From Isoetes taiwanensis (Eukaryota; Streptophyta; Lycopodiopsida; Isoetales; Isoetaceae), in the NCBI GenBank assembly GCA_021234155.1, contig JAJEKV010000036.1:10923426-10987425 (forward strand): a DNA stretch of 64,000 nt, given 5' to 3'. The position numbers and the translations under genes are program-made. Shown piece by piece: positions 15,396 through 50,213 of the stretch; the first letter of the stretch is position 1, and every line of letters begins with the position of its first letter. Below the pieces are notes generated by a model, which saw nothing but the letters and a program-made list of their open reading frames with translations, ran no database searches and was not told where the DNA came from.

Positions 15396-16330
15396 ATTGA
15401 TGTCTCCAATCTGCTTCTCGCTCTCAATCATCGAGTCTTCCAAGTCTGACAATTACCTTTTAATTTCTGCAATTTCATTCTTGGAGAAGAAAGCTATGGT
15501 CTCCACAACAGATGGATCCATATGCTTGATGTCTTTTATAAGCTTCCTGGTGCTCCTTTCCTTCTTTCCTTCATTTTGAGGCTTGTCTTCAAACTTTTGA
15601 CTTTTCCCTGCAATTTATAAAATTTCTACTGCAGAGTTTTCCTATCATCCTCTAAAATCTGCAGCTTACTGGTTAAAGGCTTTTTCCCTTCTGACCTCTC
15701 CTCCAGTAGCCGCTCCACAAGAGCAGTTTGTTCTATTGAATACCTAAGAGCAGCATGAGGCCTCTGGTTAAGCCTCATCAAATTTGAAGATTTGACAGTG
15801 TTCAGCCTCTATGAATTAGCCCCATTGTTGATATCATCAGCTTTTGATGTCTTATTGTGCATTGTAGCATTATTTGAGAGTTCATCCCAAGATACACTGA
15901 TTTTCGACTTGTCCAAGGCAAAAGACCTTGCAAAGTACATGGGTATGTGATGATTTGCTCCATCTTTCTTACCCAAAATCTCCTCATGTTTTGCATAAAA
16001 ATCCTCTCTCCACTCATCCAATGTTCTTTCTTTTCTATATCCTCTCTGGGCTAGACCCTCTTTTCCCCACACCCTTTCCACAATCTTGTGCATTCTAGAT
16101 GGGCACTATGAAATTTATTGCCCCTGAGAGTTTTCCAGGTCGCTAGATCCTCTTCCAAATCTTCTTTCAGAAATCTTTTGACTGTTGAATTGACTGTTGA
16201 AGATGTGGGATCCAATGTCTTTTTCATTATTGCTTGTATTTGGGCTTGGAGGTCTTCTTGGATTTGATAGGCTTGCTCGGCGTCTTCATTCTGTAGAGCC
16301 GATTCAAGAAAATTGTCAAAAAACTTTTAA
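15305..16330 (-). pseudogene. Relic of a coiled-coil, transposon-associated protein
   Basis: Read on the minus strand, the relic contains an N-terminal block (MKTPSKPIKSKK in one frame; QNEDAEQAYQIQEDLQ in another). The longest open piece (15809-16093) holds TLDEWREDFYAKHEEILG and NHHIPMYFARSFALDKSK. After a stop it continues as a long heptad-like Glu/Lys/Leu-rich coiled coil with further in-frame stops (RLLEERSEGKKPLTSKLQ, ETIAFFSKNEIAEIK). The YFARSFAL block matches YFARAFALHLKGESVDWDD in the protein carried by the 9.7-kb transposon (41.8-40.7 kb). The two are homologues. This copy is broken by stops and frameshifts. Its function is unknown; a DNA-binding or assembly partner of a transposase is a guess. 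Confidence 0.6.
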
Positions 16331-24409: not shown

Positions 24410-27400
24410 TGCCACCCTACGGGTCTGTATATGGAATTTAGGTGGTTTCACAGACATAAAGTCCATTTCAGGAGACATTGTTTTTAAAGAAGTAGATTTG
24501 CTCTTAGTAGTAGAAACTTGGGCACATGAGGCAAATATCTTGCCAATCCCAAGGGGTTTTGAGCAGATATTTGCTACGTGCAAGACCAGGTCGTCAGGTA
24601 AAGGAAGAGGTGAAGGTGGAATTGCTGGATATGCAAAGAAGGATATTGCTTCGCAACTGAAGGTAATTAAAATTTGTGAATATCTTCAATATGCATGGCT
24701 CTTAATAGAAGCAAACAGACAAAATATATACCTCGCAGCATGCTACTTTGCGCCTTTACAAGCAAAAGTCTATAAGCAGGAAGGGCTATCTAAGCAAGAC
24801 CCATTCACACATCTTAGTTCGGATATTGCTTACTTCTCCCAAAAGGGAAATGTGATTCTGGCCGGAGATTTTAATGCTCGGACAAGTAGTTTACAAGCTT
24901 CGTGGTTCTACCAAGATAAGGATGATCCACTATGGATGAAGGATGAAGAAGCTTGGCACATTTTAGGCTCAGAATGGAAACGTGTATCTTCAGATGAGGT
25001 AGTAAGCACCATGGGTAAACATTTGCTTTCCTTGTGCAGCTCTTGTGACTTGCTCATTCTTAACGGATGCAAAAGATTTCCAGCATCTTCCTATTATACC
25101 AACCAAACTGCTCTAGGTAAAAGTCTGGTGGTTTATCTATTAGCTGATGCTCATGCCGCAGAAAATTTGGAGGCAATTTCCGAGTTGAGGACATCCAACC
25201 AGAAGCAGAACATTGTCCACTCATTTTTTATCTGAAAATTCAAGGGCTTTTTAGGCAGCGACAAAAGCGGTATGGCAACAAACCTAAACTGATTTTTGAT
25301 TATGACAAGCGTGAAAAGTATGCTGAAATTCTAGATGGTTATTTTGCTAATTGGAATCGACCTATTGATGCATTTCAAAGGTGCCATGCATTCAAAAGTA
25401 AAGTGTTAGAGGCAGCTAAAACTGTTTTTTCAGCACCAAGATGTAGTAAAAAGGATAAGCTTTGGTTTGATCCTGAATGTCAGTCTGCCCGAGCTCATCT
25501 TAAGCATATTCATGGTGTGGATAGAAAGGCACATTTACGTTCATATCGCAAACTGCTTAAGTGCAAAAAGCTGAAATACTTAGTAGCTAAGCAAAAGGAA
25601 CTTTGCTTTCAATTGTCGCATAAGCCAAAAGAATTTTGGAAGCACATGAAAGCTCGACCAGCACAGAATGTGGAGATAGATGGTGAACAGATGTTTGCAT
25701 ATACTCAAAGCCTATATTACAAAGAAGGCGAGCCACATATTGAAGTCCCAGTCATCCCAACGGAACCTCTGTTTACTGTAGAAGATGTTCAGCAGGGTAT
25801 TCATAAGCTAGCAAATGGCAAAGCAGAAGATATTATTGGTCTTAAGGCCGAGATGCTTAAATGGGCCAAGGATTCAATAGCGGTGGAAGTTGCTGATTTA
25901 TTTAACTCCATTATGCATACAGGTTTTCCTCCTCAATGGCAGCTCAGTAGAATCATATTCATAAAAGTGGTTGTAAGAAGCTTGTTAACAATTATCGCAC
26001 GATAATGATAAGCAGCTTGATGGCAAAGCTTTTTGGCTCAGTGCTTGAAATGAAATTATCCAGATGGGCAGAAAATCAGAATGTACGAGCAATTGGACAG
26101 GCTGGCTTTAGACCAGGGCATTCAACGATAGACCATTTGGTCACAATGCGAGTTTTTTTTGAACAATCCAAGGGGAAGAAACCGGCCTTATATGGATGTT
26201 TTGTAGATCTCAGCAAAGCATTTGACACTGTTCCACGTACTCAACTTCTCCAAAGGTTAGTAAATCTTCATGTGCCTCTTGAATTATATACTGCGGTGGC
26301 TAGATTATATGAGCAGGTTCTTGCACAGTTAAGTTTCCCATTAGTGGAAAGTTGTAATAAGATATTGCAGAGTAATATTGGTGTTAAGCAAGGGTGTCCA
26401 GCGTTACCAACTCTATTTGGCCTCTATATCGATGAATTGGAAGATTGGCTTAAGGGCAGCGTAGAAGGAGCAATGCTGCACGGATACTTGGTGCAATTAC
26501 TCCTTTACGCCGATGATATTGTGCTTTTGTCACGCACTGCTGAGGGTTTGCAAAAACATCTTGATGCATTAGAAAATTTTTGCGCTCACGCGGGACTGGT
26601 GGTAAACCTGGAGAAAACTAAAATCATGATATTTGACACTAGAAAAGAGGGCAGTTTCAATTTCAAAAATCAGCATATTGAACAAGTACATTGTTATAAG
26701 TATTTAGGTCTGGAAGTAACAGATAATTATAAGTGGAATGCTGCAGTGGATAAGCGTGTCATTGCAGGGCGGAAGGCCTTATTTTCAATGCAAGCACTTG
26801 CCGAAGAATACAGTTATGGGATTGGTAATTACGGATTCACATGTATCGCACATTGGTCCAACTGGTCATTCTTTATGGATGTCAGGTTTGGGGACCTGGA
26901 TTAGCAAGAAAGAAATGGAAATCTATTGAATCAATCCAAAAGCGCTTCCTGTGCGATGAACTTGGTATCAAACTACAGACACCATATCCCATTATGTTAG
27001 CAGAGACGGGAATGCTGCCATTAGAAGGAGAAGCCATATGCCAGTTCATTACATACATTGTTAGAACTCGATTATTAGATATAGACAGGCTCCCTGTCAA
27101 AGCCATGAAAGATAGCCGTGAAGCAGGATGGTATCATGAAGGGGGTAAATGGCTAAGTCGTTGGAATATCTCCATTGAGAACTTACCAACTGAAGCAGTA
27201 GGCATCCGTGAATTTGTAAGGGAACAAATGTTGGCTCGCTTATGGGCAAATCCAAAAGACAAGATGGCATTCTATCGAGATGAAATAAATCCTATGGTGA
27301 CTTATATACCTCAGCAATACCTTATGGATGCTTTGCCAAAGGCCTCTAGACACTGCATCTGTCGGATGAGGGTTAGCTCCCATCACCTACAGATTGAGTG

Positions 27401-32523: not shown

Positions 32524-32527
32524 AGTG
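32524..32527. repeat. Target-site duplication (AGTG), left
   Basis: AGTG directly precedes the left transposon end and is repeated at 42236-42239. The minus-strand LINE at 44.65 kb has a single AGTG at the matching place (gtggAGTGtcgagg), giving the pre-insertion sequence. Confidence 0.85.
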
Positions 32528-32811
32528 GGGTAAAAGCACGTTAGGGTGTCATACATTAGGGGGCAATTCATGTAAACTTTTGAACGGGTTGCTGAATTTT
32601 AAATGTACTTATTTCATGTATAAATTTTGTCTTATATATTTAAAAAGGGGCAAAATTCTCGTTTGTTTGTAATTATGACGAGTAGAGGCCGGCGGTTGAT
32701 GCGAAACTCCTGGAGGAAATTCCTCCCTCCAATTTCCTCCAGGAAAATTCCCTCCAGAAAAATTTCCTTCCAAGAAAATTCCCAGATCGAACCAAGAAAA
32801 TAGAACACAAT

Positions 32812-33417
32812 TTGAATTTTTTTCCAGGATCAGGATCAGGAAACATGCAATCTGGTGATTTTGAAACTGAATGTGGCGATCAGGAAAACATACAATCTGG
32901 TGATTTTGAAACTGAATGTGGCGATCAGAAGAACATGCAATCTGGTGATTTTGAAACCGAATGTGGCAAACATCAGATGGCATCTGGTGAATTCAAAATT
33001 GTGAAGAGTAAACAACAGTGGCATGCAATGAATTTCGAAAGTGGGAGAGATGAGAAAGGGAAAAAGAAGATGGCGAGCATGATAGCGAAATTGAAAAGGG
33101 TAGTACATCCTCAAGGTATGTTACCAAAAAAAATAAGGACCAAGTGTGCAAAATGTCAGCATCAAGTTATGAGAAAAGAAGTCAATCTCCTCGACTCTAA
33201 TCAAAGGTACTTATTTGCTTCTAGATTCTTGCAAGATCACATGCTATTGGAGCTTTTTGAACCTGTGATTGGGTTGCCTTCACAAGCAGTGGTCAAGCAT
33301 GCAATTTTAGAAAACCTTAAAGATGGATTGGAAGAGGTAAAATGCTCTAATAGTGGTGATAAATTGGCTGCCAAGCACTCGGTTTATCAATGGTTGTGGG
33401 GAAAAATGGTGATTTGA
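32812..33417 (+). CDS. N-terminal exon of the transposon's plus-strand gene, with 15-aa repeats
   Basis: This 201-codon frame lies just inside the left transposon end. Residues ~9-55 are three copies of a 15-residue unit (NMQSGDFETECGDQ and variants; 45-bp DNA period from 32842). A basic region (GKKKMASMIAKLKR) and a CxxC pair (CAKCQ) follow. The frame then reads to a stop at 33417. A neighbouring frame continues protein-like for another 45 codons (CKMLKCHPRNLSYAASRRKR) and, after one stop, another ~40 (DEETKLKVIQFRLNNTKVSP). A frameshift or splice near 33405 therefore joins them. Presumed to be the N-terminal, DNA-binding part of the transposase gene; the link to the catalytic exon at 34.6 kb is inferred from strand and order. 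Confidence 0.45.
   Translation: MNFFPGSGSGNMQSGDFETECGDQENIQSGDFETECGDQKNMQSGDFETECGKHQMASGEFKIVKSKQQWHAMNFESGRDEKGKKKMASMIAKLKRVVHPQGMLPKKIRTKCAKCQHQVMRKEVNLLDSNQRYLFASRFLQDHMLLELFEPVIGLPSQAVVKHAILENLKDGLEEVKCSNSGDKLAAKHSVYQWLWGKMVI
32842..32976. repeat. 45-bp tandem repeat (three units) inside coding sequence
   Basis: Three adjacent in-frame 45-bp units begin at 32842, 32887 and 32932, each starting 'aacatacaatctggtgattt' with small changes. They encode acidic repeats with one Cys each. Confidence 0.9.
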
Positions 33418-33749
33418 AGCAAAAGGGAATTGCTTGCAAGATGCTCAAATGCCATCCCCGAAATCTTTCATATGCTGCTAGCAGAAGAAAGAGAATGGCA
33501 ATTGCTGGTTCAAACATTTGGGCATTAGCGAAAAGGTGAAGGCTAGATCTGATCGCTTTGGATGAAGAAACCAAGCTAAAAGTCATCCAGTTTCGGCTTA
33601 ACAACACCAAGGTTTCACCAAAGTACAGGGGATGTGAGGAAAAAAAGAAGCGAGGCAATCCAAAGATTGACATTCCTCGTATTAAAGCTTTTGTCAAAGA
33701 AACTATTACATTTCAGTTTCTTTTGTTGTTTTCATGTACATTTTCATGC

Positions 33750-34126
33750 ACATATGTGAACTCCTCTACTAATCTTAGTTTACTTGCTTTGATGTAGCCT
33801 TTTCGATTCTTTTTTGCTTCTTCAGTATTATACATGTAAATGAGGTTTATGGGGTCATCTACTTGCTCTTGGAAGTATTTCATGTATATTATGTGATATA
33901 TATGTACATAGTGTAAGGATGTAAGATTAAATGTGCCGTAAGTGAACTCCTTTGCCAATCTTAGTTTACTTGCTTTGATGTAGCCTTTTCTTTTACTGTT
34001 TTTACTTAATGTATTATACATGTAAATGAGGTTTATGGGGTCATCTACTTGCTCTTGGAAGTATTTCATGTATAATATGTGATATATATGTACATAGTGT
34101 AAGGATGTAGGATTAAATGTGCTATA
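33750..34126. repeat. ~185-bp tandem duplication in the transposase gene's putative intron
   Basis: Two long units (about 33755-33938 and 33943-34126) share 'tcttagtttacttgctttga' and 'ggaagtatttcatgtat', then 'ggatgt-a/g-g-attaaatgtgc'. They lie between the coding blocks at 33.7 and 34.3 kb and differ in a few bases and a short indel. Confidence 0.85.
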
Positions 34127-34289
34127 AATTGATACTATACATAATCTCATCGTACATATGTCTTGAATATGTACGATTCAATCAAATCTTTTACATGTAC
34201 AACCGATATGTACCGGTATACATAGTATTTCTTACTTATGTAATTGGATATGTAAGGTATTCAATGCACGTCTTCTCCAACTTACATAT

Positions 34290-34540
34290 TTTCTTTTGCA
34301 ATGTGCGGTGCCGAAATTTGTATGAGCAGTTTGTGGAGGAGAATCCAGATGCGATGTTGGTATTAGAATGTTCAATACCAAAACCAAGTTGCATAAGGAA
34401 ATTGAAGGAGAGAAACACTTGCTGTTGTGTCAAGCATGAACAAGCGAGAGAATTTCGTAAAAGCTTTCAACTCTATGAGGCGAAGTTTCACATAAATTGC
34501 GGTTGCAATTGTGATGTATGTCTTTGTTGGTACACATGAT
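34290..34540 (+). CDS. Cys-rich internal exon of the transposase gene
   Basis: One frame of 34117-34539 becomes protein-like from about 34310: LYEQFVEENPDAMLVLEC, a Cys cluster (RNTCCCVKHEQAREFRKS) and CGCNCDVCLC. The rest of the ORF, upstream, is AT-rich intron-like sequence. The Cys pattern (CCC..H, then C.C.C..C) suggests a zinc-binding segment before the catalytic domain, as in related DDE-type transposases of animals and plants. A further piece in another frame at 34.55-34.66 kb (KLTFCNVSTLWREMVCQKEE, then EWHNLKC) looks like the true continuation. The upstream end of the next ORF is therefore probably in the wrong frame. Confidence 0.45.
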
Positions 34541-34587
34541 GGGGTTTGTCGGGCACAAAAGCTTACATTTTGTAATGTTAGCACTCT

Positions 34588-35997
34588 TTGGAGAGAAATG
34601 GTTTGCCAAAAAGAGGAAAGGGAAGAGTGGCACAATCTGAAGTGCATAAGGGGATTGTGAAAAATGTGGTAAGCAAAAGATTCCCTTATGTCCAAAAAGA
34701 GACCGATCGTAATAATGAAGATGATGTTAAATGGCGAAGCTCTTGTTATATGGACGAGAAGTCAAGGAAGGGCACTTCTAGAAGACTAAGATTGGTGGAG
34801 AAGCAAACAGATGCTCCTTTCATGCTATCCGCCATGTTTGATCACATTAAAAAGTTTGTGCATCACAACTTTGCGACTCATTGGCGAGCAAGGAATTTAG
34901 GAGAAGCATTCGTGAGTCTAAGAGATGATTACGTGATATCGGTAGTAGACTTTGCAGAAAATTACACATTGCAGCCCTTCAAAGAAGTGCAGTCTGAACA
35001 TTGGAATGCAGACCAGATCACTATTTTGGTACACATCACTCTCTTCAAGGTAAATGGTAAGTTGCAGAAGACTGTTCACTTATATGTTTCTGATGATAGA
35101 AGTCATGACACACATTTTGTACAACATGCATTTCAACTTCATCTTCAGTGGTTGAAAGAGAATGGAGGATCTCACATGCGGTATCATCTCGTGTGGTCAG
35201 ATGGTTGTGCTGCTCAGTTCAAATCCAGAAGATCATTCTACTTCATATGCAGGTACCATTGTCAGCATGGCATTCGTGTACAATGGAATTTTTTTTCGTC
35301 AGGGCATGGGAAGGGGGAACATGATGGAGAGGCTGCCAAGGCCAAGCAACTCTTGGCCAGTGAGCAAAGAAGAGAGCATGGGATTGAAATAAAGGGTGTT
35401 CATGATGCCTGTGTTGTTTTGAGAAACAATAAATCTCAAGTTCGTAGAGTGTATTGGGAAGTGAAGGAGGCTGAGATTGACAGGTCAAAGCCATTTGATG
35501 TGCAACCCCTTCCTAGTGTCCAAAGCTGGCACTGTGTATCTTCCATAAGTCCGGAGGACCCAACCTTACTGATGGTTAGACCACTATCTTGTTTTTGCAG
35601 TGCCTGCATAAACTTTGAATGGCAGGCATGTGAGTCTATTCAACACTGTGGAAAGTGGACATTGAAGAAGCTAGTCCCATGTGCACATGCTGAAGGTACA
35701 GAATTGGAATCAGAAACTGCAATGTTTGCAAATGAGGTAGAGGAGTTACATGATGTGATACAGTTTGGTGATAATTTTGCTTCTTTTGCTCTTCCTGGTA
35801 ATGAGGAAGATGTGCCATACTATGTTCTTGCTTGCACTAGAGAAAAGCATGTATTGGATCAAACAGTCATTGATGATTACAAGAATGAGCATCATGCAGG
35901 TGACGCAAATCATATCAGCTTTACTATTATCGAAAATTGCCAAGTTGCCATAACAAATATAACTTTGTTGGATGATAGAGAAGTATTGGTGCCGTGA
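34588..35997 (+). CDS. DDE-like transposase, catalytic region
   Basis: This 469-codon frame is the main protein of the transposon. Candidate acidic catalytic residues sit in well-spaced motifs: D121 in VVDFAENY, D205 in WSDGCAAQFK, and E244/D246 in SSGHGKGEHDG. These resemble the beta1, beta4 and alpha4 positions of an RNase-H-fold (DDE/D) transposase. The order 'DFAENY ... VSDD ... WSDG.A.QFK ... FF.S.HGK...DG' is one I associate with uncharacterised transposase-like proteins in many eukaryotes, but I cannot name the superfamily with certainty. A Cys-rich segment (CFCSACINFEWQACE) follows at about residues 335-350. The first ~25 residues may be out of frame (see the exon upstream). The stop at 35995-35997 is the natural end. 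It would cut and integrate the element at its inverted repeats. Confidence 0.65.
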   Translation: MERNGLPKRGKGRVAQSEVHKGIVKNVVSKRFPYVQKETDRNNEDDVKWRSSCYMDEKSRKGTSRRLRLVEKQTDAPFMLSAMFDHIKKFVHHNFATHWRARNLGEAFVSLRDDYVISVVDFAENYTLQPFKEVQSEHWNADQITILVHITLFKVNGKLQKTVHLYVSDDRSHDTHFVQHAFQLHLQWLKENGGSHMRYHLVWSDGCAAQFKSRRSFYFICRYHCQHGIRVQWNFFSSGHGKGEHDGEAAKAKQLLASEQRREHGIEIKGVHDACVVLRNNKSQVRRVYWEVKEAEIDRSKPFDVQPLPSVQSWHCVSSISPEDPTLLMVRPLSCFCSACINFEWQACESIQHCGKWTLKKLVPCAHAEGTELESETAMFANEVEELHDVIQFGDNFASFALPGNEEDVPYYVLACTREKHVLDQTVIDDYKNEHHAGDANHISFTIIENCQVAITNITLLDDREVLVP

Positions 35998-36322
35998 GAG
36001 TCATTATTGGAGCTAAATTTCCCATGAAGAAGATAAATCACAGGGGTTAAAGGTGCTAGTGCGACTTTTGCATTGTCGATGATGTGCATGAGATGTTGCT
36101 AGGAAGTCTTCCCAAAATGGTGGATGCCTTGGATTAGGTGAAGGCTTTGAATTTGCGAAGCTTTTGTATTGTGTTACTTTTTGAATTGAATTGAATTTGC
36201 AAAGTGGTTTGTACCGTGTGTGAACTACCCGTTTGTAAAATATAGCATGGAACATGTTGAAGTTCAAATTATAGACAAGTGCAAAAGGTACACATAATTA
36301 TATTTCGGAGCAAATAGTACAA

Positions 36323-36736
36323 TTGTACACACTTAATAACTTAAGAAGCAGGCCTAATCACTATGTCATTTGGAACACAATATCTCAAGACTATTGCATC
36401 ATGCACGCCTTTCTTCCAACGGTTTTCGATTTACATGTGCCGCAGCCCGTAGCACTTGCCGCTTGGCATTCTCGGCTATTGGAAGGCGGTCCACCCTATT
36501 GGCTGATCAACTACTTACGCAAAGGATGGTCTCCCCAAGGATTATGTAGTAAACCTTGGGCTGCAAGTAGATTTAGCAAATTGCTTCGGTATCTGAATCA
36601 TCGATTCTCTCAACCATTTCCCAAAGCTCGGAAGAATGGTATTCGACCTTGGATTAGTCCCCCTACCAAAGATATTGGGAACTTAGATTTGTTTCTTCTA
36701 TATCGGTTGGTTGAAGATCTACTTCAGGCGGGTTGA
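36323..36736 (+). CDS. Unrecognised ORF inside the transposon (137 codons)
   Basis: The frame stays open with protein-like composition from about 36370 (DYCIMHAFLPTVFDLHVPQP, WHSRLLEGGPPYWLINYLRK) to a stop at 36736 (LFLLYRLVEDLLQAG). It is rich in Trp, Pro and Tyr. It lies between the convergent transposase and the phosphatase-like gene. I do not recognise a family. It could be an extra exon of the transposase gene or an independent gene. Confidence 0.3.
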   Translation: MYTLNNLRSRPNHYVIWNTISQDYCIMHAFLPTVFDLHVPQPVALAAWHSRLLEGGPPYWLINYLRKGWSPQGLCSKPWAASRFSKLLRYLNHRFSQPFPKARKNGIRPWISPPTKDIGNLDLFLLYRLVEDLLQAG

Positions 36737-36897
36737 AGAATTTGACACTTGTTTTGTAGATCATTCCTTACACCTACAATGCATACAAAATTATTAGTAT
36801 ATCATGTGAAAGCTTAACTATATTACCTAAGTTATGTACATACAGCCTGTATTGCAAAAGCTCTACAACATACAACATCTAAGGATAATTGTATTAC

Positions 36898-37733
36898 CTA
36901 AGTTAGATACATACACGAAGATGTGCCCGTGTCCTCGACTTGTTTGCTATCGATGTACCAAAGACACTCATCTTGTACCCCACCTTCATCATCTTCACTA
37001 GATTCTTCTATTATTGTGAATCTCTTCACTGTGATGCTAGGCTTCTTAATTAGCAAGCAACCTCTATTGCAAAAGCTCCATAAACTATCAATGTCTTCAC
37101 CATATTGAGATTTTATGCATTTCACTACTGTGTCATTGTATGCACGAGAAGTATCAAATTGATGCTCTTGGACATAAGTGGTAAAGTCATTTGCATTCTT
37201 CAAGCCTACAAACCAGGTCAAATAGCCAACACAAATCTTTGTCTTCACCGGTTAGCACTCGATGCCATCTTGGTATGCGGCAAAGAGCAACCCTCATTGA
37301 AGATACATTTGAAAGGAAGGTCGATAATCATAACACATCTATTTCCGTATTCTGGATACTTGAGGAGTGGAATATCCAAAGGGAAAAGAGATATGTCTGT
37401 CCCATCATTGGCCTCTAAGAAGAGGGTCCAACATCTATTGCCACCATAAATGAATTTAAATCTTGGTATGCCTTGCTCATACAACTTGTCTACAATGGTC
37501 GTCAGAACATCCAAGGGAAGATCTGACCAAACAGCCAAATCCCAATGGTTGGAACACCAGTACAACAATGATTTCGACAATGGACGACAAAAGAAGACTC
37601 CATCAGGTAATTGGATTGGCACTTGAGTGCCATTATAGTCACTGGGTGCTGATTTACAATAGTAACCCAAAATGCCTTGGAGATCAAATATAATAAGCCC
37701 TGTAAGTAATCCAGGCGCAGTTAGGTTAGCCAT
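36898..37733 (-). pseudogene. FCP1/NIF-like (HAD-type) phosphatase homologue carried by the transposon
   Basis: Two minus-strand frames (37245-37733, then 36898-37248) join across a frame change near 37247. The first has the HAD/NIF layout: GLIIFDLQGILG at residues ~11-22 (motif I, with the second Asp replaced by Gln), then YWCSNHWDLAVWSDLPLDVL (motif II-like). It continues with FKFIYGGNRCW and MIIDLPFKCIFNEG, the latter matching the family's 'LLDDSPYKALLNP' block with its Asp pair reduced. The second frame gives the usual tail (NANDFTTYVQEHQF) and an acidic end. In hosts such proteins are FCP1-domain phosphatases. Here both the motif I change and the frameshift argue against catalysis. Why a transposon carries it is unknown. 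An unrecognised short intron instead of a frameshift is possible. Confidence 0.6.
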
Positions 37734-37893
37734 ACATCTAACCCCACCAAGCCTAAGGATAAGACAGAAAGTCTAAACTAATTCTAGTTTTTAACCCTTG
37801 ATAGAAATTAAAGCGTTGCAAACAATTTCTTATTCAAATAAATTTCAAAGTACAATAGTCAATTAGCTTTAAATTTCATAAGTTGGAATGAGT

Positions 37894-38462
37894 TTAACTA
37901 CCACTCTTCTGCCCAGGCCCAGTGACAACTTGTTTTGTCTCATCTCTTCTTCTCAAACCATATTCAATCATGGATTTTATTAATACATTTCTTCTGCCAA
38001 GTGCAAAATCCTTGTCAAACCATGTTGATGAAAACTGCAACAAACACAAGAATTAAGATCCGCTATAATAAAACATCCCAAAAGATTTATGTGAAATATA
38101 AGAACAACTCACCATGCTTTTAGAATTCACTTGGGCATCCACAAAAGCTTGCATAAAGGCCATCATATAAAGACCGTAGCTTACATTATCTGGTTGTTGT
38201 GGAACCTCTGGAATAGTTTCCTTCTTCACTGCATTCTTCACATATAATTCAACTCTACGTGAGCTAGAGTTGGTTAGATATGTGATGACATCCTTATGAA
38301 GCCTGCACACACAAATGAGAACATGCAACTAAGATTTAAGCAAGCAAAAAAGGGTACATATCTTGAAAAGAAAATGCTTACATATTTAGGAGTTTGTTGT
38401 CCACTGTTATACCAGTCATGGAGTTCAACACAATAATTGCAGGAGAAGCCATTGAGGTGGTA
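37894..38462 (-). CDS. Ulp1-like (C48) cysteine-protease homologue, C-terminal exons, catalytic Cys lost
   Basis: Three minus-strand exons with GT..AG borders and matching phases are 38382-38462, 38113-38302 and 37894-38034; introns are 38303-38381 and 38035-38112. The joined frame reads SPAIIVLNSMTGITVDNKLL, then LHKDVITYLTNSSS, then VPQQPDNVSYGLYMMAFMQ, and ends GPGQKSGS, stop. This matches the C-terminal half of plant Ulp1-type proteases ('I.VLDSM ... VPQQ.N..DCGLYML.FM'), often captured by transposons. The catalytic Asp position reads Asn (VLNSM) and DCG reads SYG, so the active Cys is missing. The His-containing upstream exon was not identified; a minus-strand ORF at 38494-38712 is a candidate. 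The clean splicing with lost catalytic residues suggests a non-catalytic SUMO-binding or structural role, or simple decay. Confidence 0.6.
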
Positions 38463-38712
38463 CTGCAATTTTTTGGCAACTCTAAAACAAAAATCACCAA
38501 AACATGATGGGCGGGGTCCTCAACTTGAACTGAACCATAATATACCGGCATTTACTAACAACAATGCCTTGTAGCCCTTTCTCAACCGCACTTCCGCTTT
38601 GACCGTCCCATACTATTAGCATCCGGGCTAATCTTTTAAATGCTGCCCGATAAGTCAAAAAGTTTTTACTCAAGGGAAGAAAAAGAAGACATCTACGCCA
38701 TTTGGATGTCAA

Positions 38713-40640
38713 TGTGTTTGCTCACATACCTTCCGAATATGTCTAAATGTCTCGTTAGACATGTGCCTATCTTTAAACAATGTCTCCACACAATATTTCG
38801 TGACCTTAATCGAGAGGTTCACTTTTGGAACGGATAGAATGGAACCATTGTCTGCGAAGGTTATCCATGTCACTTTGCAAACCAAGCATCAATGGTAACT
38901 AGCATAAAACACATATTTACTAATCCAATTACACTTACAGTTGCTCAACCGATGTCCGCTTCTAGTTCTCTTAGCTGGCGCGACACCTTTGTATCTTTTC
39001 TTTTTCTTGACTCTTTCTTGTTCGCACCACTATCGTATCTGTTCTATCCTCGATTCCTCCTTCTCTTGCTTCACCACAACCACCGCTTTCATATCAGTAG
39101 CCACATTCTCCACTAAAATTTCTTCAATACCAGGTTGTATATGTTCCCGCCTTACATGATTCTTCAATCTTTTTCGATTGTAGTTCCAACTAAGGCCATA
39201 GATCCACTAGTTTCCTCTCTTTTTTCGCGAATAATAAAATGTATGAACATGCAATAACTAAATGCAATAAGTAGTTTTTGACTTACCACTTGAAAACAAC
39301 ATTTCAAGTTCGGTTACGATGATGTGGCATTGGCTTTAGAATTGGTACCTTCTCACATTGTCTCATGATTGTTTTCTTTTGGAGTGTCGAAAACCTCTAC
39401 AATAATATCTTTTTTTTTTTAGAGTGTCGAGACGGCTTCATTGTTCTCCTCGCTCATTTGGTTCGAAGACTACAAGATAAGTCATTGTCAACAACAAAGA
39501 TAAAACATTAAGAAAATGTAGAAATTAAACTAATATGGACACACTGTGTTGCCACATTCAAATGGCTTTGCTTGAGCTCAATTTGTTGTGCATATGAAGC
39601 TACAATTGTAGCTTTGCTTGTGATAGCTGTATCTGTTATTAAAAAAATGAGCTCAATTTGCTTCCTTATAAAATCCAGCAAATTCATTTAAAACTAATTA
39701 CTTACTTGATGTTCCTTTTCCTCCTCTCTCATGCTCTGCTACAAATGTGTTGAATGTGTTCGAGGTGACCTGGATGTGGACCGGGGTTGACTTATCATGC
39801 TTCCCTCCATAATAATCATCTACACAACTTAAAAAATCAAGTGTCTTTGCAGGAGGATCTACTCTGTTCTTGCCGGCATCTGCATACGAGGTGAAATTGA
39901 AATACATATGAAAATACCATAACCACATATCACATACCTTTCTCTGGCTTCTTTATACTACTCATGTCACCTGCAAGAATGAAAGCATTACCAATAATAA
40001 CTAGATGACTGAAAAGAAATGTACAATCCGGAAAAGCAATGTACAATCCAATTCCAAATGTATTCCATGTATCCAGATTGCGGAACTATGTACAGTTTAT
40101 GTACCCACATCCAAATGTAGAAAGCTTCCTAGAAAAAAGAATTCATAAATGCATTCCATGTAGTCTGTACTAGATATATTAGATATATGTATTTGGAGCC
40201 AATCAGAAAAAGCTTCTTGGAAAATTGTAATTGCATTAAAATGTATGATAGAGTACGAAGATGTATCAAAATGTCCCCAAAGAGAAGACCACATGTTATA
40301 CAAATGTACGTACATGTGCAGTTACCTACTTATCCTATTTTCTTAGTACATAAAAGTAACTCCTCAATATTATCTGGCAACACTGTACATCATGCACATT
40401 AATAATATGCATGTACTAACATGATGTTTACACCAGCCTAGAAAAGCAAAACGATCCAACCCTACAAATCTTCACTTCAACCTACATTTTAAAACCCAAA
40501 TGTAATTAATATACTACTGAAACAATTAATGCACAACCAATGCACAACTTCTAACTAATATCCATCTACCAATCTTACACCTGAACTAATAAAGAAAGAC
40601 ATGAAAGAAATCGATTATGCATGCTTACCTTTTCCAATCA
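38713..40640. other. Central right part of the transposon, no gene resolved
   Basis: AT-rich DNA between the Ulp1-like exons and the coiled-coil gene. Short minus-strand ORFs such as 39698-39928 (FTSYADAGKNRVDPPAKTLD) may be further exons of the Ulp1-like gene. I cannot connect them by splice sites with confidence. Confidence 0.4.
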
Positions 40641-40649
40641 GCCCCAATG

Positions 40650-41830
40650 CACGAGGTAGATTCACATCCCATGTGCAGCCTGGTACCGCGCAGTTGTTCC
40701 TTGTGCTAGCAAGATAGGAGATACATAATAGGCAGTAAGGATGTCTGCAAGATGCCAATACCACTGGGGAGGAACCAAAACACTTTTCCGCAATTTGTGC
40801 GGGATCAAAATCAGCATTTGGTCGCTCTTCCTGAAAACCAAAGAAAGAGGAGGAGGCTGCAAGCTAAGGACCGAGGAGTGATCTAAGAACTCCCTCAACT
40901 CCAAAATCTTTGTGTCCCCCTCCTCAATTGCTCTCTTTTTTGAAGACCTTAAATTGAGTTCAGAATCTAGCTGCCTCAACTCAGATGCTTTTGCTTCCAC
41001 TTCCTTGCTAAGCTCAGCTAGATCCCGCCCCCGCTTGCTCTTCTGCGCAATTGCATCCTCCACCTTCCATTTTATGTGCTCAAACTTCATAGCACTACCG
41101 TCACTTCCATCCATCTGCTGTTGAAATGCCTCCAACTCTGACATCAGATTCAAGTAATAAGTCTCGGCCTCATGGACTAGCTTAGAATATACTGCCCTTT
41201 CCCCTTCCCTATGCTTCAAAGTCTCGTATAGCTGCAGTCTCGTCTCCTGTAAATTCTGCATCTCCTTACATATGCTTTCCTTCAAAGAGGATCTGCTCTC
41301 AAGAAATACATTGTCCAGATCCTCTTTTTTGTAGAAAGTATCATAGGACTTGTGGCCCTTGGCATTGCTGGACTTGACTGTTACAACTTCAGTCAAAACC
41401 TCGGATTCTTTGACCTTGCTTTTAGTCGTGGCTGTTTTTTAACATCATCCCAATCAACTGATTCACCTTTTAAGTGTAAGGCAAATGCTCTAGCAAAATA
41501 CTGGGGGAACATAGTGATTACGTACATCTTTCCTACCAATGCAAACTCATACCACTTAAAAAAATTCTGCCTGGTCTTCCAACTTCACCGGCTCATCCTT
41601 GTACCCCGTTCGTAGGTTCCTTAGATCCCCAAACTTACATCACTACTGAGTTGTACTCTGCAAATTTTTCCTTGAATTTCATATTCGCCGGATCCCTTCG
41701 CGAGAAAATATCATGTCCTCCTTTGTCGCAGCCCGGGACTTCCGGACTTCAAATGTGTCCCCTGCTTTGGAAGCCCCGGGAGATTTTCGACCGATGCAGG
41801 CAACACTCTTCTTTGGTGTCTTTGCCATTG
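40650..41830 (-). CDS. Coiled-coil protein carried by the transposon (frames interrupted)
   Basis: On the minus strand a start at 41827 gives MAKTPKKSVACIGRKSPGAS and a basic region. After a frame change near 41695 it reads SRRDPANMKFKEKFAEYNSV. Further along are LEDQAEFF, KWYEFALVGKMYV and FPQYFARAFALHLKG (41600-41470). The long frame at 40662-41396 is a heptad coiled coil (SLKESICKEMQNLQETRLQL ... ELSKEVEAKASELRQLDSEL), ending with VPPQWYWHLADILTAYYVSP. The YFARAFAL block and the coiled coil match the relic at 15.3-16.3 kb, which defines a conserved protein family tied to this transposon lineage. Introns or frameshifts separate the pieces. Its function is unknown; a second transposition factor is my inference. 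Confidence 0.55.
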
Positions 41831-42235
41831 TCTGTACGCAATGCAACAAGAAATATCTTTTAATTGTCCTAAAGGTGCAACAATCTGAGCTTGCACATGT
41901 AAACAAAACCCTAAAGTAATAAATTAAAAGCGAAAAAAAAAAAAACTAGGGAAGAAGACGATTGTACCTTTGATTTGTTGAGAATGGCCAAAGCGACTTT
42001 CTAAGAGCGTCTTTTAGTCGCTTGCAAGAGATCGAGGTGCCGGATCGCAGGGTAAAAGCAGAGAGATCAAATGACAAAGAAACAAGAACGGGGAAGAAAG
42101 AATTGGAGGGAATTTTCGATATGCCTATTTTCGGTCGAAAAAAAAAACAAAATTCACGGTAATTATTATACATTTCTAAAAATGTATATATATTAAAATG
42201 ACCCAATATTTTATCACCCTAACGTGCTTTTACCC

Positions 42236-42239
42236 AGTG
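42236..42239. repeat. Target-site duplication (AGTG), right
   Basis: AGTG follows the right transposon end directly and matches 32524-32527. The interrupted LINE 3'UTR continues after it (tcgaggtatcgctg). Confidence 0.85.
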
Positions 42240-42358
42240 TCGAGGTATCGCTGTCTCTTTGGGGCAGTTCTCCTGCCTCCTCACTTGCTTTGTAACATTA
42301 CCATTCTTTTAATATATTGACGACACAGTTCTTAAAAAAAAAAAAAAAAAAAAAAAAA
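42236..42358 (+). mobile_element. LINE 3'UTR and poly-A tail (continuation of 31560-32527)
   Basis: The stretch 'tgtcgaggtatcgctgtctc ... gctttgtaacattaccattc ... atatattgacgacacagttctt' matches the reverse complement of 44570-44660, the 3'UTR of the minus-strand LINE. It ends in a 25-A tail at 42334-42358. Confidence 0.9.
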
Positions 42359-44555
42359 ATCTCTACATTATTTGAGACAAAAAACAGGGGGCATCTGGCA
42401 TCTAAAGAATTAATATTATACTACTTTGGAGTTATTAAAGCAAGTTTTTTTGTTGAACTGAGTTTGTTCACTCATACATTTTTCAGTTCTTTTTCAATAT
42501 ACACTCAGTTCCTTTTCACTTATACACTCCCAAGTCTTTCATATTCTTCATTCTTTAATGCAAGCATCAATTGCCATCAAATATATACCAGAATATCAGG
42601 TCTAAGAATGTGAATATGCAGGATTTTGTCGCCTCCCTTGCAAAGAACAATATTTTCTACTCAATTCTTTAAGATCCCGTGCACACTGTACTGAACCAGT
42701 GTAGGGTGGCATAGAGGCGACACTCCTTAGATGTTCTCTTCTACTCTATAATGGATAATAGATAATGTCGTGATAAATAAAATGTCAATAATTATTATGC
42801 AAGATAACACAGACTAGGATAAAATTGCAAAATAGACTACGATGAAATTGCAAAAGTATAAATGTGTGTATACTGTATACATAACATTCAGGTTGCAAAT
42901 AGTTTATTGGAGAAGTGCCACATGCTCCAATATACATATGATGAACATTAGGCTATATTCACATGTCATGAACATCTAGAAACCTATAGAGCTGCGACAT
43001 GTGTTTGTTCATAATAGATGCATGTTTTTTGTGATTAACATGCATTTGTTGCATTCGTTCATGATACATGCACATGTTCTTTAATCACCCCTCACAATAT
43101 TTTGAGATAACTCTTTTAGATTTGACAATCAAGCCACAACTTAATGAATAGCGATTTGACAACCAAGCCACAACTTAATGAATAGCCCCAAATAAACTAT
43201 TGGTACTAAGGCTTAGATTTCTAGATACAATTCCTTTAGATTTGGAAAGCTAGCCACAACTTCATGAGTATTTCAAGTAGACTATTGGCGCCAGGGCTTA
43301 ATATGGTAATAAGAAAAATGGGCAATTAAACGAATAGACAAAACAAATTCCTTTTTTAACATCCAAAGATTTCAAAGATTTCGGGTTGATTAAGAATAGA
43401 AATAAAATACATGTAGAGCCAAATGTGTAATCCTACATGCACATCACAAAATAGAAAAATCACAACAATATCAACATGGCAGAGATTTACCATACTGCAA
43501 ATCCAGTACCAAATGCAAGTATTTTAGTGCACAGATATGCATAGGCTTCCTTCCCTTGGGTTGCTTTATTAAAACGGAAGAACCTAAAATAGACTAGATA
43601 TTTTTCAGGGTAGACATGACGTCTAAGTTACATGACATCTAAATTACATATTCTTTGTTAGACATTATTCATCGTTTTGTGAACCAATAAAAACTACACA
43701 ACATTCTAGACCAATATGCTTTGTAATTGGTATTGTTAGAGGCCTATGCCAGTTAAAAATGACACAAATGATTGTCATATGCGGCAACTCAACGCAGCTG
43801 ACACCAATATTTTTGCCATGTACATTGGATGTACATCTACAACCTCATAATTCCTTGCAATGAAACCGTACTTATGCACGACAACCTTATCATTCCTTGC
43901 AACAAAATCATACCTCCAGACCAGACATGCGCAACTCCTTATGATTCATATTGTTGCACAGACCTTTCAATAGTTGTAAATCTAACATCCAAAACTTGGA
44001 CAATAACTTAAAAGGAGCACCATTGACAACCCTACATATATTCCTAAAGCCAACATCTTATTCATATAATTCTACAATAAATTTGTAGTTACGGCCGGCA
44101 ACGCCGGGCACCATAACTAGTATTCTTTGATTTTCTAGTAGCGTCATTACTACAAGGGTTTTTTGGAAACATCTCAGACAAGGGTTTCAATCCTAGCTAG
44201 TAGTAATGCCATTCCATTCTATTCTATTCCATTCCATTCTTATGTGTAGGGTTTTCATGCTTTCTTTACTATGATGATGGTGATTATGGAGGTTAGAATT
44301 GTGTTTTCCATGTTATTTTTACCTAGTTGGGATTTAGATTGAGTTGGATTAGGTAAGGTTATCGGTCTGGCCGAGGCTGATAACCAAAAATGCTTTACCG
44401 AGGCTGTACATCCGAGGCCACGCATTTTTGGTTATCAATCGAGACAAAGATCGATAACCACCTTATCGGACTTATATGGGTGGAATAGTACTGATAATTA
44501 GTTATCAATACTCCTCTAGTACTGATTTATCAGTATTCCTGCAATAGTGATAATT
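42359..44555. other. AT-rich spacer with tandem and inverted repeats
   Basis: No gene is recognised. A ~31-bp unit ('gatttgacaa-t/c-caagccac', then 'aacttaatgaatagc') is tandemly duplicated at 43122-43184, with a weaker third copy near 43230. At 44380-44460 'ctgataaccaaaaatgc' and 'gcatttttggttatcaat' form an inverted repeat. A ctattccattc-type simple repeat lies near 44215-44240. Confidence 0.5.
44539..44555. repeat. LINE target-site duplication, left (17 bp)
   Basis: CTGCAATAGTGATAATT precedes the T-run (minus-strand poly-A tail) and is repeated exactly at 48295-48311. Confidence 0.9.
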
Positions 44556-47500
44556 TTTTTGAAGAACTGTGTCAGCAATATATTAAAAGAATGGTAATGT
44601 TACAAAGCAAGTGAGGAGGAAGGAGAACTGCCCCAAAGAGACAGTGATACCTCGACACTCCACAACAACTGCAACTCTACTGCTGTACAAACTGACCATC
44701 ACCATCTACCACACCCAAGAAGTCCCGCCAAATGGAAAACTTCCGCTCTACTAATCCCGGGAACACCAAAAAGCTTTGAAATAGCTTGTACCGAAGTCGA
44801 GGAATCGAGAGGCCGCAGTCAGTCAATCCCCCGAAGATCCACAACCGCCGCCGCTTCCAAATCAACCACACCAACCAAGCCACGCGACGGATGCAAGGCT
44901 TGCTGCCGCACTGGCGGCCAAGCACCGGATATACATGAAGCAAAGAATTGTTGGCTATTCAATCTCACCTGAAACAGAGCCCCGACCCAATCCCGTGCAA
45001 CCCGCAAGTGAGGGCATAAAACCGCACAATGCTCCACGGTCTCACGATGAAGGCCACAACAAGGGCAAAGAGGGCTCACACCCGCCTAAACCGACTCACA
45101 AGGACATTCACCCCGATACAATGGTGCACCACCGCCACATAAGCACCCGAACCTTCGGGTGGGGAAGTGAGCTCCATGTCCACGCCCAAACCGAAAGCCC
45201 ATCGAGAACCCGAAGCGAGACCACTTGCCCGGCAAGGGGCGAGTGTCATGAATAGCCAACACCCGGTAACAAGACCGCACAAAACAAGAAGATACAACAT
45301 CCGGATGAACCTTCCAAACCTGCACCACCACATCACCCCGAGGGACTATAGGTATGTGTAGCGGAATACTCCCGCCACTTGTTCCCGTGATAGCCCTGGT
45401 CACCGTCCTTCGACGAAAAGCGAGCTCGAAAGAACTCCCACGGCTAGTAGACCATCCCAATACCAATCCTCCAAGGTGAGCACAAAGAGCTCGCCTCCAA
45501 CGGGCTCAAGTCCGAGCATGCACAATGGGCAGCCCAAGGGCAAGTAATGCCAGGAGGTAGAGGAACCCACAAGAAAGGAGAAGAGTGGTGATAAACCGAG
45601 GCATAATCTAGCCGGAAGAGCACACGCACGTGATCCCAAGCCCGCAACACCCCCGTGGAGAAAAGGGGAGGCATGTGGGAAAGGCCGGAGACCATACAAC
45701 AAAGGCCCCGGGCAACTCTACATGCATCGCAGCATCGACTTTCCAAATGCCACACAATGGCGAAGAGATTGCCACAATAGTGCCGCACTGGAGAAGATGC
45801 TCCATCCCGAGAATGCTCCAAATAAACTTAGAGACCAACACCTTACTATGCAGTGCCAAATCCGAAATGGCCAAGCCCCCATCCTCCCTGGGGGAGACAC
45901 TTCCACCAAGCCACTTTAACAACCGCCCCATCATCCCCGCCCCACACAAAAAATGAACAATCTTATCCAAAGCATGTATCTTACCCCGGGGAGCTAACAT
46001 CGCGGATCTTTGTATACACATGAGTGCTACAAAGTAATGCGACTTGGCAATAGTGATCCTACCCGCCATGGACAACTTGCTACCCTTCCACCAATTGAGG
46101 TGTTTCGCAACCCCCAAAATCTCATCCCACACCCTCCCCATGGAAACATCCCTCCAAAGGGAATACCCAACAGCTTTAGTACACACATTACCTACGGAAG
46201 CACCTTCCAAGGGAATAGAGCCAAACAAGGGGGAGGCGGAGTCAATCGGGCCCATAATGCGAGCATTTACCCCAATTCAGAAGAATGCCCGAGGCCAAGG
46301 AGAAAGTATCCAAAGAAACCCTTCACATTCCAAAAATTCCTCTCTTCGCCACCAAGAAGAGAAAAGTGTCATCGGGCGAACCGGTTAATAATCTGGCGAC
46401 TACCATCCCCGCATCCAAGCCCATCCACCACCCCCTCCCTCCACCGCAGCCCAAAAACAATCGAGACAATGCCTCCGCCACAATCGTAAACAAAAATGGT
46501 GCCAAAGGGCACCCCCGACGCACCCTCCCTCCTAAGGAGAAAAGGCGAGGGTTCACCCCCGCACACCACCGTGAGTCCGTGGCCGACCTATGCAGCTTTC
46601 ATGATCGTTTCAGTAAAGCGTGGACCACGCAGCCCAACGCTAACATCATGGCGACAAGAACTCCCAAATCGGACACTATCATAAGCTTTGGCAAAGTCAA
46701 GCTTAAGATAGGCAATGCCTTGACTGTTCTCTCCTGCCCAATAAAGGCCCTCATAAGCCTGCGGCAACATTAGTCAAAATGTTCCTCCCGGAACAAACCC
46801 GGTGCACCTTACTAATGGAAGAAGTCAACACCGCTTCAACTTCTCGGCCGGGGCTTTCGCAATAATCTTGTACACGAGAGGACAACAAGGATATAGGCCT
46901 CCAATCATTAATAGTAGAAGGCTGCTTAACCTTAGGAATCAAGGAAATGCATGCGGTATTCAAGATCCTATCCATGTGAGAAGACTGCGGAACTCAAGAT
47001 ACACCGGTACAATGCACTCACCATCCCACTCCCAATAAGTCGAAAGAACTCCACAGGGGATGCCATCCAGCCCAGGACATTTATCCTTGGCCATGCACAT
47101 ACATGCCTCTGCTAAATCCTCTCCGAGAGCTCCCGCTCCAAGCTCTCACGTTGATGAGGCAAAATAGATGGTTTAACAGCCCCAAAACAAGCTCCCCGCA
47201 TCTCCTGCTCATAGGGAAGAGTCGCGGCTTTGCGCAAAAAACCCCGAGAAATGAGCATGCACATACCTCTGCAACTCAGGGGGATCCTCCAAAGTCCGCC
47301 ATCGCAAAAGCAAGGGGCGCCATAGATGCTTTGCATATCGCCACCGCCTAGTAGCTCACAAGAACACCGAACTTGTATCCCCTCCTTCAACCAGGTAAGG
47401 GCTGCCTTCACACGCCTCATGCACTTTAACCTGCTCCAAAGCAACAATACGCCGCAACACCGCATTCTCCCTAATGCCATCGGCAGGTCGTGCCCGAATC

Positions 47501-48294
47501 TTCTCAACTCCCCGATAAAGACTATGCAACTCCTGCCGCTCCTGCTGCACACGCCTACCAAAGACCTTAGCAAAACGCTTCACCCTGGCCAACGCAGTCA
47601 CCATACCAGACATACCCTTCAGAGATGAAAAGGTATCAAGCCACAACTCCTGGCACTGGGCCGAGAAATCCGCATCAGCCAGAAGCCGGGTGTTCAAACG
47701 GAACACCGTCCGAGAAGGCCGAGAGGCAACCGCAGCACTCCTGACCGGACAAAACTTGAGGGTAATGATCAAAATGGAGGTAGACGTAATGTTACTCCGG
47801 CACAAAGAGGGCACACCATCCAATGCGCATGGGGAAGCATAGCACCGGTCATGCCTAGCATACGCCCGGCCCGCACCAATCTGCCTATTACAATAGGTGA
47901 AAGACAAGTCCCCAGGGACCTCAACCAAGGCCAAATCCTGCAACAAACGAGACCACTGGTCCCTCTCAAATCCCTGCACAAGCTGGGTGCCAGAACCAGA
48001 GCGATCTTCTACTCGCTCTACCATATTGAAATCCCCTAACAACAACCAAGCAACCTGCAACCCACCAAGGGCTCGCAACTTATTCCGGACTGTGGCCCAC
48101 AAAGCACCCCGCTGAGAAGGCTGATTAGGGGCATAAACATTAACAATCCCCCACTCTTGCCCGCCCTCCAACCACTTAATTATTGCCCACCGACCAAACC
48201 TGTCTGCTGCAGAGTATGTGACCTGCACATCCATCTTCCAAGCAATAAGAGTACCCCCACTAGTCCGCCCAGAAGAAGAAGCAATAAAGCCGAA
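44556..48294 (-). mobile_element. 5'-truncated LINE with 17-bp target duplication
   Basis: A minus-strand plant-type LINE of 3739 bp is flanked by exact 17-bp direct repeats. Its short poly-A tail appears as T's at 44556-44560. The 5' end is truncated inside the endonuclease domain, so ORF1 is missing. Order on the minus strand: endonuclease (48.29-47.8 kb), linker, reverse transcriptase (46.98-46.3 kb), connection domain (46.25-45.6 kb), zf-RVT (45.08-44.97 kb) and C terminus ending FVQQ at 44677. It belongs to the same family as the copy at 31.56-32.5 and 42.2 kb. The frames are broken several times, often at CAG/CTG sites. Confidence 0.92.
44677..48294 (-). pseudogene. LINE ORF2 (endonuclease, reverse transcriptase, zf-RVT), 5'-truncated and frameshifted
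   Basis: The frame 47356-48294 enters the endonuclease at FGFIASSSGRTSGGTLIAWK and contains GIVNVYAPN, the catalytic WLLLGDFNMVE and ITSTSILIITLKF (damaged SDH-type box). Reverse-transcriptase blocks follow in changing frames: ISLIPKVKQPSTINDWRPIS, LKLDFAKAYDSV, RRGCPLAPFLFTIVAEAL and a damaged active site (FARPDDT-like, where FADDT is expected). Further on come GSKLSMAGRITIAKSHYF, a zinc-binding CPCCGLHRETVEHCAVLC block, and WLIWKRRRLWIFGG to LRYKLFQSFLVFPGLVERKF. The first 15 codons of the open frame, upstream of 48294, are flanking DNA. Dead as sequenced. Confidence 0.88.
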
Positions 48295-48311
48295 CTGCAA
48301 TAGTGATAATT
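48295..48311. repeat. LINE target-site duplication, right (17 bp)
   Basis: Exact repeat of 44539-44555 at the 5' (right-hand) side of the minus-strand LINE. Confidence 0.9.
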
Positions 48312-50213
48312 GAAAAACAAAGACTCTCACTTTACACAAGAGAGTCCGATAAGAGTTGTACCCCCTTTGTCAACAAGGCTAAGGTTAGGGTGCATCCCCA
48401 TTGTACAAAAACTGGGTTTGCCATGTTATCAAAACTGGGTTCCTACAATCTATTATGCACATACCATTCCCATTACTGTGGGTGAACTTTTGGTTCCTTG
48501 GCGAGCTACATAACAAATCGGAACTCAGGTACAAGACAAACATAACTGCTAGAGGACAAATGAGCTTGCTAGAAGACAAATCCAAGGCTGAATTGGGCAA
48601 TTCCGAAGTCCTTGAGAACTTCTGAAGAAAGAGAAGGTGCGTTGGACTCGTCAGCAGAACTTCGATGCCTTGAAGGTAATGGGAATGCTTTTTTCTTGGC
48701 TGGATTTGCCATATTGCAAAGTCAGGCTTGGATAACGGCCTAATGGGGATGAGCCCTTAGGCTATCTCTATTTTTATGTTTTTGGCTTAAGCCCAACAAT
48801 GCTAGGTGATTGCATAGATATGCCATGGAATTGCAAATGGTAGAGAAAAACACAAAAAGCTTTAAGAAAGTCTCTCTTCCAAACAAAATCAACGTGACAT
48901 CTAGTATGTTCTATTATTTCGTTTGGTATTTGGGGAGGGTATCTCTGGCATGGTTGGGCCTAGATTTGGCGGCTGTATTGTATTGCAAATCGTATTTTGA
49001 GGGTATTTTTGCAGCGGTTTGAGCTGCTTATTGGCGTATATGCCAAAGAAATTTCATGGTGTGATGGTGTGAATTTAGAAAGAAATTTTGGCTTCTGGCT
49101 TTGGAGATCGGGTGGAGAGGTCAGGGACTGATGTCGCTGGAGAGGTCCGGGCTTGAGGCGCAGAGGAGGATGAGAAGGGGTGGGATGAGAAAGGGCGCAG
49201 AGGAGGAGACGGCTTGCTGGTTTAGGCCGATTCTGCTTGAGGTCGATTCATTTGTGTTTTGTTAGGAGAATCCGGTGTTGAAGAGGCGGCATAGAGAATC
49301 CGCTCTGCTTGGGCATGGAGAATGCGGATCTGCTTGGGCAGTGCATAGAGAATCCGGTCTGCTTGGGGTGTGCGGGAGTAGGCGGATTGGGGCAGAGACT
49401 GGATGCCTTCACGTTCTTGTTTTTTTTTCCTTCTTCTTCTAACTATGTGCAGCCGGATATGGATTTGCTGTGGGCGTGGAGCCGGAGCATGGTGAAGGCC
49501 TGCAATTTCTTCGCTGAATCTCATGGCTCCGGCTCCGGATGCGTTGCCATCTGCAATGCATGCCAGCAGGGGCATGGTTGACCTTGTTTTTTTTTTTTAA
49601 ATCTTCTATGTGCAGCATTTGCACCATTGGAAGTGGCGGGCGTTTTGCTGGCCAAAAATTTAATGGCCCTTGATTTGGCACAGAGGAGAGAATATTCCAA
49701 ACATCAAAGGTAAAAAATCAGAGATGAGGAAAAACCCGATAAAGAATGGAAAATAATGAAGCACATTTTGTTGGCATTAATTTTGTAACCTTTTCAACCC
49801 ATATCACACTTTCATGAGAAATATAAGTAATTAGCGTAGATATTGATACCGGTTTTATACTCATGTTGGAAAATACAATACAAGTATACTATATTTCTAG
49901 TAATATGTTCTTCGTATTACAAACTATTATGTTTATTGGACCAAAATATTGATGAATACTTTTACCTTGGCTAACATAGGCACACATTAGTCTTTTAAAA
50001 CGCAAGGGTACAAAAAGAAAACGACAATTATGTTATTTTGTCATTCCATAAAATTTAGGTACATGTTCTTCCAAGACCATACACACGTCATTAAATATAC
50101 ACACTTCCTACATGACAATTTATTCCATTATTCAAAAGCAAGAAATAATGCACTTGGAAAGGATTTAAAGGGCAGACCAAGTTGATTTCATTAGGATAGG
50201 TATCGAGTAAAAG
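48312..50213. other. Spacer upstream of the pectinesterase gene
   Basis: No gene is recognised. At 48905-49035 and 49590-49690 the DNA resembles 8440-8570 and 11925-11995 respectively (diverged dispersed repeats). Near 49285-49390 a 'gcatagagaatccg-c/g-tctgc' unit recurs. The last few hundred bases should contain the pectinesterase promoter and leader, but no TATA box can be assigned with confidence. Confidence 0.45.

Follow-up and report, generated by a model that had tools for sequence, protein, structure and literature searches.

DNA transposons of the Sola type (Sola1, Sola2 and Sola3) make 4-bp target site duplications, encode a DDD transposase, measure 2–9 kb and sometimes more than 15 kb, carry variable inverted ends and occur in moss, according to the available part of PMC10741241; for the dictyostelid Sola2, the available part of PMC3627910 gives a transposase of 888 amino acids and inverted ends of 12–21 bp. 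Ginger1 elements also make 4-bp duplications, at CCGG or CCGT targets, and have TGTNR ends and a transposase of the Gypsy-integrase kind, and in some of them an Ulp1 domain lies within the transposase itself; Ulp1 and OTU domains have been proposed to act in transposition (all from the accessible sections of PMC2836005). In plants, a peptidase C48 gene is carried by the Kaonashi/VANC elements of the MULE (Vandal) type (PMC6117577 and PMC13317346, each as far as its text is available), and Ulp1-bearing VANC genes have been linked to hypomethylation of related elements in the portion of PMC13317346 at hand.

The window considered here, by which we mean the whole analysed stretch of 64,000 nucleotides of the Isoetes taiwanensis genome, holds an element of about 9.7 kb at 32528-42235. 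We consider it very likely that this is a terminal-inverted-repeat, cut-and-paste DNA transposon of a 1.66-Gb lycophyte genome that carries putative helper genes beside its transposase. The features on which the argument is built are as follows.

32524..32527, no strand: AGTG target site duplication, left (flank comparison)
32528..32548, plus strand: left terminal inverted repeat, 21 bp (arm match and genome-wide count of the 21-mer)
33127..33728, plus strand: remnant of predicted transposase exon 1, helix-turn-helix-like by eye, frameshifted (tblastn with exon 1 of the relative L052)
34429..36134, plus strand: predicted transposase exon 2, with Cys/His-rich region, putative catalytic core and C-terminal part (alignment, tblastn)
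36344..36801, minus strand: remnant, with stops, of a small gene, G4, convergent with the transposase (tblastn; relatives)
36901..37715, minus strand: NIF/FCP1-like (HAD phosphatase-type) domain (PF03031, 17.3 bits against a cut-off of 21.8)
38056..38328, minus strand: C-terminal part of an Ulp1-type peptidase C48 (sequence comparison with relatives)
40618..41608, minus strand: coiled-coil and RING-like gene, frame partly broken (sequence comparison with relatives)
42215..42235, minus strand: right terminal inverted repeat, 21 bp (arm complementarity)
42236..42239, no strand: AGTG target site duplication, right (flank comparison)
44400..44900, minus strand: second LINE copy with the empty, uninterrupted site (alignment to the rejoined flanks)

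Ends, empty site and copies in the genome

The two inverted arms are 21 nt long and 100% complementary, a match expected by chance about 1e-5 times per 10 kb of uniform sequence, and AGTG stands at both flanks. Rejoined around a single AGTG, the flanks can be aligned to 44400-44900 read in reverse complement; besides substitutions, the alignment contains two 1-bp gaps and, directly upstream of the insertion site, a 13-bp insertion. The perfect ends, the 4-bp duplication and the unsplit LINE near 44.65 kb that an earlier note on this DNA had reported are thus confirmed as real; its description of a complete 9.7-kb transposon holds for the ends only, the genes in the window copy having decayed. 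The right flank of the element ends in a poly-A tract at 42334-42359, an open reading frame with a reverse transcriptase domain (RVT_1, 25951-26901, 4.8e-32) lies upstream of the element, and the second LINE region has an endonuclease match, below cut-off, at 47359-48369; the reverse transcriptase domain, the endonuclease match and the tail are together compatible with non-LTR elements. Within the transposon there are tandem repeats of 45 bp (three units, 32834-32967) and 186 bp (two units, 33756-34122), and the window contains no second pair of end repeats.

The genome searched comprises 1,658,258,908 bases in 1,110 contigs. With up to two mismatches, the 21-mer end occurs at 3,344 places (1682 forward and 1662 reverse), and the reversed 21-mer, sought in the same genome at the same tolerance as a control, has 0 matches. 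Among the first 100 end positions listed there were 23 apparent end pairs, of which 20 were compared (the three left out are on C767, C985 and C1028), and 17 of these 20 are flanked by an exact 4-bp duplication; the others have a 5-bp duplication, a duplication with a single-base difference and no duplication, respectively. Five further copies gave exact 4-bp duplications in three cases (C1077, C908 and L051) and none at C1054, where the end pair itself is doubtful, or in a short copy nested in L047, bringing the overall count, window included, to 21 of 26 copies. The copies collected at the suggestion of the earlier note therefore have the same ends and mostly the same duplication length. No sequence is fixed among the duplications, which are 64% A+T (20 of the 21 tallied) and include CCCA, CCAC and AGCA. 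Six full copies (L045-L049 and L051) align end to end with the window copy, with internal indels and with pieces that are 89-94% identical.

The short copy in L047 (L047:1327-1668) is 342 bp long and has similar ends. At C996:16771934-16840469 (L037, L038), perfect ends with a matching GTCT duplication are 68.5 kb apart, which may reflect one very large element or insertions that lie one within another. No account of this element was seen in the titles and abstract openings listed, a coverage outside which subscription journals and Repbase Reports fall. As a reference for lycophytes, the family offers exact ends, target duplications and an empty site; its thousands of related ends can be used to classify unlabelled repeats in the Isoetes taiwanensis genome.

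Inverted ends, a 4-bp duplication and an empty site fit cut-and-paste movement by a DDE/D enzyme. In the mechanism that we propose, a two-exon DDE/D-type transposase of about 850 amino acids would bind the 21-bp ends and excise the element, which would then be inserted at cuts staggered by 4 bp with little sequence preference, and repair of these staggered cuts would produce the 4-bp duplication.

The transposase and its superfamily

The motifs DFAENY, WSDGCAAQFK and HGKGEHDG, which the earlier note had assigned to the transposase, all lie in the open frame 34582-35997. This frame does contain the conserved core, so that the reading of the 34.6–36.0 kb protein as the transposase stands, but it represents only part of the enzyme, a first exon and an intron having been overlooked. 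The open frame sits within exon 2, and in the window copy the frame is disrupted at both ends of that exon. In relatives the second exon encodes about 608 amino acids and is preceded by a predicted intron, whose GT-AG borders are found at the same position in five of the six sequences probed, the window being the one without a motif match; the first exon in relatives has many basic residues. Summed over the two exons, and provided that they are spliced as the borders suggest, the predicted transposase would have roughly 850 amino acids. Without help in trans, the window copy probably cannot move.

Compared with the genome, the protein of the open frame matches at least 96 places (90 of 10,708 candidates scored). 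In an alignment of 14 loci, D214 (in DFAENY), D298 (in SDGCA) and D339 (in HGKGxHDG) are invariant, among other invariant acidic and further residues; HGKG(E/T)HDG is common to the relatives, and a Cys/His-rich region precedes the three Asp motifs. The three aspartates are plausible candidates for the catalytic residues. A dN/dS of about 0.16 was obtained for the transposases of L053 and L050.

The earlier note could name no superfamily with confidence. In a Pfam scan at E<=1 the window frame matches 0 families, and the 14 relatives match seven weak and scattered ones, with two members at most per family, a best E of 0.0038 for an unrelated domain and no transposase family among them, which also leaves the protein without a match to a cellular gene family. 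A PDB profile search returned no relative, none was confirmed when viral and prokaryote contigs were scanned by pattern, a search of papers for the motif strings gave no lead, and a single-sequence fold model was unusable (pLDDT 36.6). The transposases of hAT, MULE, CACTA, PIF and Tc1 are represented in Pfam, and none of these is among the seven families matched by the relatives. The piggyBac and Kolobok target is TTAA; its absence from the 21 exact duplications excludes the groups that target it.

Sola, which the earlier note had mentioned, is in our judgement the best guess, and a rather probable one, when the element is set against the published description of that superfamily. The likeness lies in the 4-bp duplication, exact at most of the copies compared, in the inverted ends and in the size, since 9.7 kb with 21-bp ends falls within the published Sola range; the three invariant aspartates, which stand among other invariant acidic residues, may correspond to a DDD transposase. 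The differences are that the AT-rich AWWT target of dictyostelid Sola2 is not seen among the duplications tallied, so that the element has no comparable AT-rich target preference, and that RING, C48 and NIF genes go unmentioned for Sola in the available parts of PMC10741241 and PMC3627910.

Could the transposase instead be the founder of a superfamily of its own, distinct from every named one, its 4-bp duplication having arisen by convergence? The absence of a transposase family in the Pfam matches of the 14 relatives, of a PDB relative and of any confirmed relative in the viral and prokaryote scans would be expected in that case, as would duplications unlike AWWT. We nonetheless regard a separate superfamily as unlikely: the anatomy agrees with the published description of Sola, a Sola model may simply be absent from Pfam, and the layout of the transposase motifs resembles, as a lead only, that of large animal protein families.

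Academ and Chapaev elements make 4-bp target duplications as well. The element could belong to another named superfamily with this feature (Academ, Chapaev-type CMC or Ginger), and Ulp1 domains, like the one described below, also occur in Ginger1 and in Mutator-type elements (PMC2836005, accessible sections). Yet the CCGG or CCGT targets, the TGTNR ends and the Gypsy-type integrase of Ginger1 are not seen here: neither target occurs among the exact duplications, and the Pfam matches of the 14 relatives include no integrase family. Target and domain evidence together exclude Ginger1, and the missing integrase speaks against Ginger2 as well. We consider placement in one of these superfamilies quite unlikely, and continue to prefer Sola.

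Genes of the right half

The right half of the element, which the earlier note had passed over, carries on the strand opposite to the transposase, read inward from the right terminal repeat, the coiled-coil/RING-like gene, the C48 region, the NIF-like domain and G4. In the window family the NIF-like domain has DLQGI at the position expected for DxDx, and in the window C48 a Tyr (VSYGLY) replaces the Cys present in C908 and in the five full copies whose frame was compared. Among relatives, C48 exceeds the PF02902 cut-off of 20.7 in two subfamilies (L048, 32.7 bits, 8.7e-08; L067, 25.6 bits), and NIF exceeds the PF03031 cut-off in one (L068:781-1476, 46.8 bits, 3.4e-12), remaining below it in L048 (15.7 bits) and L052 (21.4 bits) as it does in the window. 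The Pfam scan of L067 gave neither a NIF nor a RING match, and the best RING score in L051 is 15.2 bits, below the cut-off of 27.9; a RING-type spacing of Cys and His can be recognised by eye in both.

The association of these genes with the transposase was assessed by counting neighbours. Among the matches listed, in a list biased by the queries, 35 of the 90 transposase loci have a NIF place no more than 15 kb away, where about 0.2 would be expected, and 55 of the 90 have none; all 35 NIF partners are downstream of the transposase and on the opposite strand. The count covered 90 of 96 transposase matches and 120 of at least 163 NIF matches; where a copy was matched in more than one piece, the additional pieces were omitted. 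G4 accompanies 19 of the 90 transposase loci, a figure taken from 21 of 154 matches that were mostly chosen near a transposase, and because of this selection only the NIF co-occurrence is a fair count.

Four divergent relatives (C908, C1077, C1048 and C1054) were extended to 14 kb. In C908, whose transposase is 52% identical, NIF, C48 and coiled-coil/RING occur in the order and strand of the window and inside matching ends of their own; the right-half proteins are 27-43% identical to those of the window family and L052 (NIF 27-35%), and the NIF domain keeps D-I-D (LVFDIDRG). In C1077 (transposase 56%), C48 and coiled-coil/RING lie inside the ends in the window order and strand, there is no NIF inside the ends, and the sole NIF match is outside and on the other strand. 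C1048 (51%) has NIF and G4, with C48 far from NIF and with neither the right end nor RING found in its 14 kb, and C1054 (50%) has a NIF fragment only. The order of coiled-coil/RING and C48 is thus kept beside transposases of 52-56% identity, with NIF added in C908, so that these genes look like long-standing parts of the element, and this family seems to have carried protein-modifying helper genes beside its transposase for a long time.

One might instead see in the right-half genes fragments of host sequence that were captured passively and have no role. Plant elements often capture genes (PMC13317346, in the portion at hand), the window C48 has lost its Cys, several window frames are broken and C1077 lacks NIF inside its ends, all of which such capture would accommodate. 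What makes passive capture improbable, in addition to the order and strand shared by C908 and C1077, is that NIF frames remain open among relatives at 41-45% identity and that dN/dS, computable for four right-half comparisons (two for NIF and one each for RING and G4), is 0.32-0.61, with values near saturation; three other comparisons, C48 among them, were saturated.

If the right-half genes are instead helpers, as we prefer, the RING-like, C48 and NIF-like products may help the element to persist, and they would most likely strip or redirect SUMO or ubiquitin marks on proteins of transposition or silencing. The nearest precedents for such helpers would be the Ulp1-bearing VANC genes and the proposed action of Ulp1 and OTU domains in transposition. 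The likeness to VANC is a C48 gene on a plant DNA transposon; the difference is that Kaonashi/VANC elements are MULEs, whereas no MULE domain was matched here, and that RING and NIF partners are unmentioned in the available text of PMC6117577 and PMC13317346. A more far-reaching possibility, to which we give only tentative credence, is a plant transposon lineage, possibly its own superfamily, in which RING-like, Ulp1-type and NIF-FCP1-like genes have co-evolved as a kit that rewrites SUMO, ubiquitin or phosphorylation marks on proteins of the host or of transposition and by which the element escapes silencing in the manner reported for VANC elements. Should the helpers be functional, a plant DNA transposon family would have long carried a multi-gene SUMO/ubiquitin/phosphatase-like module, and whether such elements encode their own anti-silencing defence would become testable.

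Elsewhere in the window, at 15092-16087 on the minus strand, a divergent relative has left what remains of its coiled-coil/RING gene, at about 32-34% identity; positions 1-32520 gave no transposase match with the queries used.

A histone-H3-like reading frame and other neighbours

An open reading frame of about 380 amino acids, with MARTKQTARK at its start and a histone-H3-type core at its end (PF00125; 3.5e-28 in L050 and 2.5e-29 in L063), was found at the following loci.

L063:513-8989, minus strand: region of the H3-like open reading frame and the retroelement frames beside it
L050:7050-8186: H3-like open reading frame locus
L053:7159-7794: H3-like open reading frame locus

The frame is absent from the window (tblastn at 1e-3) and has at least 108 matches in the genome (108 of 25,369 candidates scored). 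It lies downstream of the transposase in L050 and L053 and was considered as transposon cargo, but of the at least 108 places only the query's own is, by eye, near a listed transposase place, and in L063 the frame is upstream of a second open reading frame, a gag frame and a Ty3/Gypsy-type pol frame with reverse transcriptase, integrase zinc-binding and chromo domains; cargo of the transposon was rejected on both grounds. Similar frames, in the order seen in L063, run across L053/L065. The H3-like frame and the chromodomain Gypsy-type frames presumably belong to one element, its LTRs not located, in which case a chromodomain retroelement may encode its own H3-like protein. As fits a plant, the window itself has, at 50.2-52.1 kb, a PMEI/pectinesterase gene.
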